From assembly GCA_903895595.1 (NCBI GenBank), contig CAITUP010000138.1, positions 1 to 64,000 of the forward strand: a DNA stretch of 64,000 nt, written 5' to 3'. Under the pieces are notes generated by a model. It saw only the letters and a program-made list of their open reading frames with translations. It did no database searches and was not told the DNA's origin. Below, piece by piece: positions 21,164 to 41,491 of this stretch. Made by a program: the position numbers and the translations under genes. Origin of the DNA: an uncultured Acetobacteraceae bacterium (GTDB taxonomy: Bacteria > Pseudomonadota > Alphaproteobacteria > Acetobacterales > Acetobacteraceae). Each line of letters begins with the position of its first letter. The stretch's first letter is position 1.

Positions 21164-21247
21164 CCACCCGTCACGGTCGGGCTTGACCCGACCGACTCAG
21201 GCCAATTGGAACGACGTGGTCGGGTCAAGCCCGACCATGACGGGTGG
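21164..21247. repeat. REPIN-like palindrome between the two dioxygenase genes
   Basis: A 30-bp inverted repeat with one mismatch (arms 21164-21193 and 21218-21247, 24-base spacer). Each arm itself contains a hairpin with 7-bp stem GGTCGGG/CCCGACC: 21175-21193 with loop CTTGA and 21218-21236 with loop TCAAG. Two hairpin-forming units in inverted orientation is the architecture of REP doublets (REPINs). The core GGTCGGGCTTGACCCGACC is, from memory, a common dispersed repeat of alphaproteobacteria. It ends 5 bases before the start codon of the second alpha subunit and includes its only Shine-Dalgarno-like bases. Confidence 0.9.
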
Positions 21248-38587: not shown

Positions 38588-38791
38588 ATGGACGATTTCC
38601 CTCAAGCGACAGAAGCGGCGATCGCCCGCTGGTTCGGTGTCGCGCCGCCCAACGATCCCGGCCGCCGCATGGCCGCCGATCTGGTGCACACCATCGCCGC
38701 GTTCGAGAAACTCCGCGGCACCATGGTCTTCGAGGACGAACCGTCCAGCTTCGAATCCGCCCTGCAAGCGACGAAGGAGACCGCGCCATGA
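38588..38791 (+). CDS. Small amidase partner, GatC/AtzG-like (67 aa)
   Basis: A 67-residue, mostly helical protein (RRMAADLVHTIAAFEKLRG at about 26-44) whose last 4 bases overlap the amidase start. The position, size and helix-then-extended-tail layout resemble GatC and AtzG (DUF4089), small partners that wrap around GatA-type amidases. Direct sequence similarity to either is weak, so the match is a proposal. A GGAGAGAG ribosome site supports translation. Confidence 0.65.
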   Translation: MDDFPQATEAAIARWFGVAPPNDPGRRMAADLVHTIAAFEKLRGTMVFEDEPSSFESALQATKETAP

Positions 38792-40206
38792 CCGCCCTGG
38801 CCAATCTTTCGCTGACCGACGCCGCCGAGGCGGTGCGCACCGGACAAGCCACATCGCGCGAATTGCTCGATGCCTGTTGGGCCAACCTGGAAAAAGCCAA
38901 CCCAACGCTGAACGCCACGATCTGGCTGGATCGCGAGGGCGCCGAGGCCGCCGCCAAAGCCGCCGACCAGGCCGTCGCGGACAAAAAACCGCTCGGCAAA
39001 CTGCATGGCGTGCCGATGGCGCATAAGGATATGTATTATCAGGCGGGCAAGCTCAGCACCGCCGGATCGGCGCTCCGCCGCGACTGGCGCCCCACCATCA
39101 CCTGCACCGCCGTATCCCGCATGGCAAATGAGGGCGCCTACGTCTTCGGCGGCCTGAACATGGCCGAGTTCGCGCAGAATCCCACCGGTCACAACAAAAC
39201 CTATGGCGATTGCCACAATCCCTGGAACCCGCCGCGCATCACGGGGGGGTCTTCCTCCGGCTCCGGTGCCGCCGTCGCGGCCCGCATGACCTACGCAGCC
39301 CTGGGATCCGATACCGGCGGGTCGATCCGCCTGCCGGCCGCGGCCTGCGGCGTCACCGGCATAAAACCGACGCAAACCCGCGTGTCCCGCTACGGCGCCA
39401 TGCCGCTGTCCTTCACCCACGACAACGTCGGCCCCCTCGCCCGTACCGCTCGCGATTGCGCCCGCATCATGAGCGTCATCGCCGGCCACGACCCGATGGA
39501 CCCCACCAGCGCCCACGAACCCGTCCCAGACTACGAAGCCGCCCTGACCGGCGATCTGCGCGGCCTGCGGATCGGGGTGCCCACCACGTTCTTTCTGGAC
39601 AACGCCGACGCCCCCGTCCTCGCCGCCATGGACGAAGCCCTGGCCGTCCTCGCGGCAAGAGGCGCCACCGTCACCCGCATGACCCTGCCCCTCATGGATG
39701 CCGTCGCGGCCTATGGCGGCATCGTCTCCCGCGTGGAGGCCGCCACCATCCACGCCCAATGGATGCGCGACGACCCGCAGGCCTACGGCCAGCACATTTC
39801 CTCTCGCATGTACCCCGGCTACGCGATCCCCGCGCCCTACTACGTCGAATCCCTCAGCCGCCGAGGCCCCATCCTGCGCGCCTTCGCCGCGGAAGTGTTC
39901 TCCCGGGTGGACGTCCTGGTCACGCCCACCATTCCCACCTGCATCCCCACCCTGGCCGAAACCGATATCGACCACGGCCCGCCCGGCACCGAATACAAAT
40001 TCCTCGCGGTGTCCATCAACACACGCCCGTTCAATTACCTCGGCCTGCCCGCCGTCAGCGTGAACTGCGGCCTCGACCCGAACGGATGCCCCATCGGCCT
40101 GCAAATCGCCGGCCGCCCCTTCGCAGAAGCCCGCATCCTGGCGGCTGCCGACGCGTATCAACGCGACACCGATTGGCACATCCGCCGGCCACCGGTGCTG
40201 GGGTGA
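38788..40206 (+). CDS. Amidase signature family enzyme (472 aa)
   Basis: The Ser-cisSer-Lys triad is complete: Lys80 (HKDMYY), Ser155 in ITGGSSSGSG and nucleophile Ser179 in DTGGSIRLPAA. Such enzymes hydrolyse amides and form a covalent acyl-serine. It overlaps its small partner gene by 4 bases. The first bases of a large palindromic element lie in its stop codon (TGA 40204-40206). An asparaginase-like gene follows beyond that element on the same strand, so the region may deal with amides, though the substrate is unknown. Confidence 0.94.
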   Translation: MTALANLSLTDAAEAVRTGQATSRELLDACWANLEKANPTLNATIWLDREGAEAAAKAADQAVADKKPLGKLHGVPMAHKDMYYQAGKLSTAGSALRRDWRPTITCTAVSRMANEGAYVFGGLNMAEFAQNPTGHNKTYGDCHNPWNPPRITGGSSSGSGAAVAARMTYAALGSDTGGSIRLPAAACGVTGIKPTQTRVSRYGAMPLSFTHDNVGPLARTARDCARIMSVIAGHDPMDPTSAHEPVPDYEAALTGDLRGLRIGVPTTFFLDNADAPVLAAMDEALAVLAARGATVTRMTLPLMDAVAAYGGIVSRVEAATIHAQWMRDDPQAYGQHISSRMYPGYAIPAPYYVESLSRRGPILRAFAAEVFSRVDVLVTPTIPTCIPTLAETDIDHGPPGTEYKFLAVSINTRPFNYLGLPAVSVNCGLDPNGCPIGLQIAGRPFAEARILAAADAYQRDTDWHIRRPPVLG

Positions 40207-40472
40207 AGCAAGAGCGGGGCTTTGCCCCGGACCCCACCAGGAGGGCTTTGCCCTCCTGGACCTCCCACCAAAGGGCGACGCCCTTTGGAATCCGTCAGTT
40301 TGGTTTGTGTTGGGATGGGGGGCCTACACGGATGTTGCAACCGCCTCGGATGGCCCCCCATCCCAACACAAACCCAATTCAATGGTTCCAAGGAGCATCG
40401 CTCCTTGGTGGGGGCTCCAAGGGGGCAAAGCCCCCTTGGCGGAGCGCGAGGCAGGGCCTCGCCCTTACTTCA
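40204..40472. repeat. 269-bp symmetric element: two inverted 121-bp halves, six hairpins
   Basis: Halves 40204-40324 and 40352-40472 are inverted copies separated by 27 bases. The inner 23 bp (40302-40324 and 40352-40374) are identical; the outer 9 differ by one base. Each half has three hairpins with 3-base loops at exactly mirrored centres: 40222/40454, 40248/40428, 40278/40398. Stems differ between halves, yet stay paired through compensated changes, e.g. CCAGGAGGGC (40237-40246) against CCAAGGGGGC (40417-40426). This is the layout of an enlarged REP doublet. It fills the gap between the amidase and the asparaginase-like gene. Confidence 0.9.
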
Positions 40473-40492
40473 CACCAACCCGGAGACGACGC

Positions 40493-41491
40493 ATGAGCAA
40501 ACCGAAGGTCGCATTCATCGGCACAGGCGGCACGATCGCCTCGCTCGGCCGTGGCCCGTTGGACATTCAGGATTACGGCGCGGCGGGCAATGTGATGCAT
40601 GCCGACGCGATTCTGGCGCATTGGCCGGATGTGGCCTCGGTGGCCGATGTGTTCGCGGTGCGGTACCGCAATATCCCCAGCACGGCGATCGGGTTCGCGG
40701 ACTGGAAGGCGTTGGCGGCCTTGTGCGCGCAAGTGGAAGCCGAGACGCCCGATCTGGCGGGCATCGTGATCGGGCATGGCACGGCGACGTTGGAGGAAAC
40801 GGCGTATTTCCTCGATCTGACGGTCAAGGTGAAGGTACCCGTGGTCGTGGTCGGGGCGCAGCGGCCGTCCAGCGCGTTGTCGTCGGATGCCGGGCTGAAT
40901 TTGGTGAACGCGGTGCGTGTGGCAGCTAGCCCCGAGGCGCGCGGCCTGGGCGTGCTGGTATTACTGAACGATGAAATTCACGCGGCGCGGGAGGTGACGA
41001 AGACCGCGACCTCCCGCTTGCAAACGTTCCGCTCCCCCGATTTCGGCGTTCTGGGACATGCCGATGGGGACGCGATTGCGTTCTATCGCCGCCCGATCCG
41101 CCGTTGCGCGCCGGATACCGAGTTCGATGTGGCCAACCTTGAAGCTTTCCCCCGCGTGGACATCGCCTACGCCTACGCAGGCTGCGACGGCACCGCCGTT
41201 CGCGCGTTTGTGGCCGCTGGGGCACGGGGCATCGTATCCGCCGGTTTCGCGCCCGGTTTTACGTCGCCGGATGAAGCGGATGCGCTGAAGGAAGCCGTGT
41301 CGAAGGGCGTCGTGGTGGTTCAGAGCACGCGGGCCGGCTCCGGCCGGGTGTTTCGCGGCACGAAACTGCGGGAGAGCGGCTTCCTGGTCGCCGACAACCT
41401 TAACCCGCAGAAGGCCCGTATTCTTCTGGCCCTCGCGCTGACCCGCACCGCCGATCCGGACGCGATCATGACCATGTTCCAGACGTATTGA
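40493..41491 (+). CDS. Asparaginase-like protein with altered substrate site (332 aa)
   Basis: Type I/II asparaginase fold. The first catalytic Thr is Thr14 (TGGTIAS), the second Thr97 and Lys170 in VTKT are present. However, the usual H-G-T-D-T is HGTAT, so the Asp that binds the substrate amino group is Ala98, and the usual G-S-x-D segment near residue 60 is RNIPSTAIGF. It may therefore act on another amide or on none. CGGAGACG precedes the ATG. It is separated from the amidase by the palindromic element and may follow it in one transcript. Confidence 0.85.
   Translation: MSKPKVAFIGTGGTIASLGRGPLDIQDYGAAGNVMHADAILAHWPDVASVADVFAVRYRNIPSTAIGFADWKALAALCAQVEAETPDLAGIVIGHGTATLEETAYFLDLTVKVKVPVVVVGAQRPSSALSSDAGLNLVNAVRVAASPEARGLGVLVLLNDEIHAAREVTKTATSRLQTFRSPDFGVLGHADGDAIAFYRRPIRRCAPDTEFDVANLEAFPRVDIAYAYAGCDGTAVRAFVAAGARGIVSAGFAPGFTSPDEADALKEAVSKGVVVVQSTRAGSGRVFRGTKLRESGFLVADNLNPQKARILLALALTRTADPDAIMTMFQTY

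Follow-up and report, generated by a model that had tools for sequence, protein, structure and literature searches.

The window, the whole stretch of 64,000 nt analysed here, carries between an amidase and an asparaginase gene a symmetric paired-hairpin element that is probably one copy of a non-autonomous mobile repeat amplified within its genus, with the size of a MITE and the layout of a REPIN. The element was found at many sites, relatives lacked it at the corresponding sites, and it nearly always formed a complete pair. In addition, assemblies showed that, between unchanged flanks, its interior can invert or give way to the interior of another copy. The unit would consist of two half-ends of different type, A and B, in inverted orientation. 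Each half-end would have three small hairpins; a long inner stem would link the two, and imperfect terminal inverted repeats would form the outer limits.

The first-pass annotation had described inverted halves of 121 bp around a 27-nt centre, with mirrored hairpin centres at 40222/40454, 40248/40428 and 40278/40398. All of these features hold, the inner 23 bp of the halves are identical, and the five compensated stem pairs by which the halves differ are real (Table 1). The two halves (40204-40324 and the reverse complement of 40352-40472) are identical at 94 of 121 positions, and an inverted-repeat search extended the arms to 126 nt (40199-40324 and 40352-40477; 78% complementary). No other inverted repeat of the window with a gap of 10-59 nt reaches the length of the perfect 23-bp arm; once the element is removed, the maximum is 19 bp, at another hairpin doublet. 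A covariance model of the half, R1, which was built on 56 halves, recovered both window halves (E 3.9e-13 and 9.3e-12), although these scores are not independent because the window halves themselves contributed to the model. The half-types of the window copy were read by eye from hairpin 3 and the spacer. The element RNA was predicted to fold into a single long hairpin at −184.7 kcal/mol (−184.7 and −198.4 kcal/mol for the two strands) and, when pairs were limited to 80 nt, into local hairpins plus a central stem at −153.7 kcal/mol.

Table 1. Features of the paired-hairpin element and its neighbouring genes (window coordinates)
Feature	Coordinates	Strand	Remarks
Amidase gene, upstream	38788..40206	+	start inferred; PF01425 E 6.3e-104 over 38812-40203
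Whole paired-hairpin element	40204..40472		inverted similarity extends to 40199-40477
Left outer arm, imperfect terminal inverted repeat	40199..40214	+	approximate extent; overlaps amidase stop codon
Left half, type B (hairpins 1-3 and spacer)	40212..40302	+	R1 match 80.4 bits
Hairpin 1	40216..40228	+	5-bp stem, loop TTT
Hairpin 2	40237..40259	+	10-bp stem, loop TTT
Hairpin 3	40268..40288	+	9-bp stem, 3-nt loop
Left inner arm, 23 bp	40302..40324	+	perfect pairing with 40352-40374
Asymmetric centre, 27 nt	40325..40351
Right inner arm, 23 bp	40352..40374	-
Right half, type A (hairpins 4-6 and spacer)	40374..40464	-	R1 match 72.8 bits
Hairpin 4	40388..40408	-	9-bp stem, 3-nt loop
Hairpin 5	40417..40439	-	10-bp stem, 3-nt loop
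Hairpin 6	40448..40460	-	5-bp stem, 3-nt loop
Right outer arm, imperfect terminal inverted repeat	40462..40477	-	approximate extent
Asparaginase gene, downstream	40493..41491	+	PF00710 and PF17763

Elsewhere in the window, at positions 21166-21245, ACCCGTCA...TGACGGGT encloses two hairpins, each with an 8-bp stem and spaced by 22 nt, which form a small inverted doublet distinct from the element. This doublet resembles a CGTC-type REP doublet, although CGTC repeats are reported as missing in Acetobacteraceae in the available part of PMC3733652. The same genome contains a similar stretch (locus L014, 2526-2547).

The own genome has a single copy of the element, and the next best match beyond its two halves had an E-value of 0.025 over 21 nt. 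When 40 genomes, 24 of them from the element's own genus, were searched with the window element at the DNA level, matches were obtained in 18 genomes (own included), all of the same genus, indicating that the element is not a chance palindrome. The genus appears to be Rhodopila (Acetobacteraceae), since the nearest genomes include Rhodopila globiformis DSM 161 together with many MAGs. The first-pass annotation had held that an element occurring only once would be a chance or gene-specific palindrome; this is the situation in its own genome, whereas the genus holds many copies. It had also proposed searching relatives with one half, and this search revealed a dispersed family, with R1 matches in 24 of 33 genus genomes and none in nine. 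At least 134 half-matches were present in each of G048 and G006, where all 134 scored candidates matched, followed by G016 (102), G023 (89), G040 and G013 (86 each), G042 (84) and G003 (58). These eight copy-rich genomes are apparently metagenome assemblies. Each of 16 other genus genomes had 25 or fewer half-matches, with two in the own genome, and G011 and G015 gave weak DNA matches yet no half-model match. Only four of 385 genomes drawn from the class matched, own included, under stricter filters by which weak matches were lost. Thus, some Rhodopila species carry dozens to perhaps hundreds of copies.

A 391-kb sample of G006 contained 33 halves. All but one of them were paired head to head, giving 16 pairs with 64-81 nt between the halves. 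This density of one pair per 24 kb corresponds to roughly 225 pairs per genome if the sample is typical, but the sampled contigs were long and already known to carry copies, so that the density may exceed the average; the minimum is 134 halves. All 17 sites were located between gene calls, which were made with a simple purpose-written gene finder, at a coding density of 89%, and at two of them the called start of a neighbouring gene fell inside the element. None of the copies seen contained a gene, none of the G006 pairs had room for one between the halves, and neither a gene-carrying long version nor a transposase between the same ends was found in the 391-kb sample. Several contigs terminated in or near a copy.

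Insertion was apparent when the same loci were compared across genomes. In 22 of 29 other fetched asparaginase loci, the amidase gene was directly upstream and the element was absent, with a gap of ≤30 nt in 20 loci and of 66 nt in two (G013 and G040). The window element is therefore an insertion between genes that are neighbours in relatives. Elements also occur at the soxD-soxA junction of G013 and G040 and, apparently independently, of G006, while the two genes are joined without insertion in 9 of 13 other fetched genomes; G017 (L165) and G020 (L164) have a 35-nt spacer there, and G019 (L163) has another insert of about 220 nt. The possibility that the element inserts only into pre-existing inverted repeats was discarded because the amidase and sox sites of relatives are free of such repeats. 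When three elements of G018 were probed in G044, none was intact: the L079 site held another insert, the L078 site held the right half only plus 2.1 kb of other DNA, and the L080 site held about 117 nt of other sequence.

Two further observations concern these sites. The soxD-soxA junction has received insertions repeatedly. The insert of G044 at the position of L079 is about 600 bp long (L140, about 570-1180, reverse complement), its ends carry TTCATCTGCGGTTTCA-like repeats, and an open stretch within it resembles a GxxExxY-type gene.

For alignment of the copies, the partial loci L050-L052 were skipped, leaving 68 elements, and L068, L069, L075, L076, L082, L088 and L102 were dropped before the halves were aligned, leaving 61 elements and 122 halves. 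In the 56 halves of R1, 96.4% of the cells in the three hairpins were paired, and double changes occurred at 12 of 17 pairs. The covariation check suggested by the first-pass annotation gave a strong hairpin signal, with 88 double-change cells against 26 in shuffles, counts that are inflated by related sequences. None of 500 shuffles was as high as the data on four of five measures; the fifth, further pair types, showed no excess (19 vs 19.0; 320 of 500 shuffles as high). The inner arms were nearly identical within an element (distance 0.026) and differed between random pairs (0.288) in 44 elements from four genomes. G016 was excluded from this test; its inner arms had distances of 0.302 within and 0.553 between elements, which is partly an alignment shift. 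These results show that the hairpins and the inner stem keep pairing as their sequence changes. In a loop count covering 106 halves, in which 3-nt-loop hairpins were tallied in the 70 halves with at least three of them, the loops had a pyrimidine majority on the inward strand in 71 of 73 cases for hairpin 1 and 68 of 77 for hairpin 2, indicating that these two hairpins have polarity. One-sided stem changes did not favour G-U over A-C (15 vs 25 cells) and thus gave no RNA-specific signal. In G003, loci L077 and L069 carry a further palindrome, ATTGGTCCGC..CTTCGCGGCCCAAT, inside or beside hairpin 2, resembling nested hairpins.

The two halves of an element are not equivalent. In 51 elements from five genomes, the distance across hairpin 3 and the spacer was 0.424 within an element versus 0.325 between random halves of the same genome, and none of 1000 shuffles was as high; hairpins 1 and 2 showed no such effect (0.271 vs 0.257; 89 of 1000 shuffles as high). 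The within-element distance between halves exceeded the between-element distance in each of six genomes. Two-way clustering separated the halves of an element in 6/6 cases in G003, 13/15 in G013, 7/7 in G016, 5/5 in G018 and 5/5 in G040, with 357, 44, 195, 636 and 604 of 5000 label shuffles, respectively, reaching the observed clustering. It failed in G006 (5/18; 4551 of 5000 shuffles), where four half-types could be distinguished by eye. Each element thus tends to join one A half and one B half. Because halves diverge more within elements than at random, each element pairs two old half-types, and the compensated differences noticed in the window copy are differences between these types. The first-pass annotation had concluded that the hairpins were kept while the halves drifted; covariation bears out the conservation of the hairpins, but the differences between the halves are not recent drift between equal halves.

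Interior rearrangement was observed in orthologous copies of G016/G048 and G013/G040. We compared seven pairs in which both flank probes lay on one contig at element spacing, leaving out probed loci whose flanks were on different contigs or for which one flank was found. The blocks of hairpins 2 and 3 had swapped sides in four of the seven pairs and were unchanged in three, while the flanks and mostly the outer hairpins remained constant; in L142 the left outer hairpin was degenerate. Inner arms could also be replaced by ones similar to those of another copy (L045/L147). Some copies carry N at the centre, indicating that such palindromes are hard to assemble. Flipping of the interior between fixed flanks is therefore probable, as seen in assemblies, where palindromes assemble badly. 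In yeast, template switching between inverted-repeat arms gives both homogenisation and spacer inversion, as described in the accessible part of PMC8604942.

Beyond the outer hairpins, the flanks form imperfect mutual inverted repeats that differ from locus to locus and fade over about 45-55 nt. The flank tests omitted the seven dropped loci and seven G040/G048 orthologues, included ten new G006 copies, and retained 62 copies with long enough flanks. Outer arms scored ≥14 in 26 of 62 comparisons within elements versus 16 of 2072 between elements of the same genome; those of the window element score 13, which is unexceptional. At the sox site the outer arms fall within the inserted DNA, and sibling copies resemble each other up to and including these arms, with little similarity outside them (L291/L292, 94% over 313 nt; L086/L096, 91% over 277 nt). 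For both reasons, the outer arms seem to be mostly terminal repeats of the moving unit, and the sharing between siblings led us to drop the notion that host DNA duplicated during insertion accounts for all of the symmetry of the flanks. At L101, the left arm is a conserved host gene end (...GRDFMLRRA*), which three other genomes, the own genome among them, share unchanged and a fourth has in a form one residue shorter, and the right arm is close to its inverted copy. A copying step of the kind just dropped is still required at this locus, which indicates that flank symmetry can in part develop after insertion. No fixed target-site duplication was detected in the 62 copies, in which direct repeats of length K were about as numerous as in controls (K=4, 587 vs 525; K=5, 139 vs 133; K=6, 36 vs 43). 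Read singly by eye, L055 and L162 suggested a target duplication of 4-6 bp.

The first-pass annotation had likened the element to an enlarged REP doublet (REPIN), which fits its layout and dispersal, but it has no REP tag and the expected transposase is not its regular companion. As in the REPIN/RAYT system described in the portion of PMC3116915 available to us, an inverted, extragenic doublet with hairpin ends is the replicative unit, and spacer pairing is kept through compensatory changes. The Rhodopila element differs in having three hairpins per end, two end types, a length of about 230-310 bp and outer paired arms, and in the lack of RAYT in seven of the eight copy-rich genomes. With bacterial MITEs (ERIC, NEMIS/Correia, RUP, Chunjie, QMITE), it shares a non-coding sequence, a size within 70-300 bp, terminal inverted repeats and many intergenic copies, according to the accessible text of PMC3733652 and PMC10969869. 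Unlike theirs, its terminal repeats are mostly locus-specific and rarely common to copies, there is no consistent target duplication, and no parental IS was found in the 391-kb G006 sample. CGTC-tagged REPs of Alphaproteobacteria are likewise palindromic intergenic repeats; those are the repeats reported as missing in Acetobacteraceae (PMC3733652, available part), and the half consensus of the Rhodopila element has neither a CGTC nor a GTAG tag. The element behaves like a REPIN or a MITE but, judged by RAYT and tag, is not a REPIN and, judged by conserved terminal repeats, is not a MITE. Among the titles and abstracts listed by searches of open-licence papers, none described this Rhodopila family.

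Outside the genus, R1 gave weak scores (E 8e-5 to 7e-4) for smaller modules, of which eight of ten non-own rows were viewed by eye. L188, L192 and L196 (same family, different genus) and L190 and L193 (different family) resemble the Rhodopila element in their head-to-head hairpins and GGACCC-type linker, but have two or one hairpins per side and no long inner arms. L189 and L195 have one side only, and L194 is arranged differently. These modules suggest an older, wider group. The window element gave one short match of 40 nt in plasmid collections and none in phage collections; in the same collections L188 gave three short matches, and L259 and L193 gave none.

A RAYT-like transposase, which the first-pass annotation had expected if the element is mobile, did not accompany the copies. 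The RAYT/Y1 transposase domain (PF01797) was present in 5 of 33 genus genomes and, among the eight copy-rich ones, only in G006; it was absent from G040 and G048, which are 97% and 98% complete. PF01797 was detected in 5 of 14 control genomes, including E. coli. On this distribution, RAYT was rejected as a regular partner. Reverse transcriptase (PF00078) was clear in four copy-rich genomes (G023, G040, G042 and G048), G006 and G016 gave weak matches, and G003 and G013 gave none (the G013 assembly is 64% complete); it was rejected as a partner, since it does not track copy number and many copy-poor genomes have it too. Nor can a loss of SbcCD from the copy-rich species explain the differences, since TIGR00619 behaves the same in rich and poor genomes: SbcD scored above the cut-off in none of the 33 genus genomes, and weak matches were present in 33. 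The weak-only SbcD matches may bear on the tolerance of long palindromes in the genus.

These data allow other explanations of the element to be weighed. That it is a true REPIN family moved by RAYT is very improbable: an inverted extragenic doublet whose hairpins and, as in REPINs (PMC3116915, in the part available), spacer show compensatory changes is what such a family would look like, but the PF01797 distribution, the untagged consensus and the three hairpins per half in place of one speak against it, and the small fetched locus around the G006 RAYT gene contains no half-model match. Equally improbable is a host regulatory or termination RNA element that is selected at gene ends. Its conserved, covarying hairpins and stable predicted folds on both strands are compatible with such a role, but the G006 sites (8 co-directional, 7 divergent and 2 convergent, versus 217, 53 and 54 for all neighbours) show no 3′-end pattern, the sites are species-specific and empty in relatives, and G-U pairs are not favoured. 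Neither the window nor 40 kb of G006 (L277 and L283) gave an Rfam match at gathering score, and the element has no T-run. An intrinsic terminator was specifically rejected, as the linker GGACCCC is not T-rich and 7 of 17 sites lie between divergent genes.

Because template switching homogenises inverted-repeat arms (PMC8604942, accessible part), compensation alone does not prove selection. The compensated changes could therefore result from template switching, which would perfect quasi-palindromes in the absence of any selection for hairpins, the family being mobile or ancient for another reason. We consider this unlikely, though less so than the two preceding explanations. The orthologue inversions and arm homogenisation match the yeast signatures, inner arms are near-identical within an element and different between elements, and the L101 flank points the same way. 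However, free homogenisation would erase both the fixed loop polarity of hairpins 1 and 2 (71/73 and 68/77) and the difference between A and B halves, which persist.

Under the favoured interpretation of a mobile repeat amplified in the genus, the element would spread by transposition in trans, through an enzyme for which the two hairpin ends would serve as recognition sites, probably in single-stranded or cruciform form. Template switching or recombination between the arms may then account for the later flips and the homogenisation of the arms. The window copy would have inserted between two genes that are neighbours in relatives, and is probably without host function. Weighing against this interpretation are the lack of genes inside the copies seen and of a consistent target-site duplication, the failure of Y1 transposase and reverse transcriptase to follow copy number, the mostly locus-specific outer arms, which ordinary MITE ends are not, the flank of L101, the fifth covariation measure, the poor assembly of palindromes in what appear to be metagenome assemblies and the single copy in the own genome.

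More tentatively, and with less confidence than in the mobile-repeat interpretation itself, the family might represent a separate, hitherto unnoticed class of bacterial mobile DNA, a superfamily of hairpin modules with its own mobiliser. Such a class would have two obligatory, non-equivalent multi-hairpin ends, spread with neither a Y1 transposase nor a reverse transcriptase and attain, by extrapolation, perhaps 200 copies or more per genome; its interior would keep flipping and swapping between copies after insertion, and it would have smaller relatives in other Alphaproteobacteria. The element copies may partly explain why their host genomes break into short contigs. In addition, where the stems in the two halves of a palindrome differ by compensated changes, the cause can be a pair of old end-types and not recent drift. 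The Rhodopila copies provide a natural high-copy test of how REPIN-like repeats spread without RAYT, and of how frequently inverted repeats flip and are homogenised in bacterial chromosomes.
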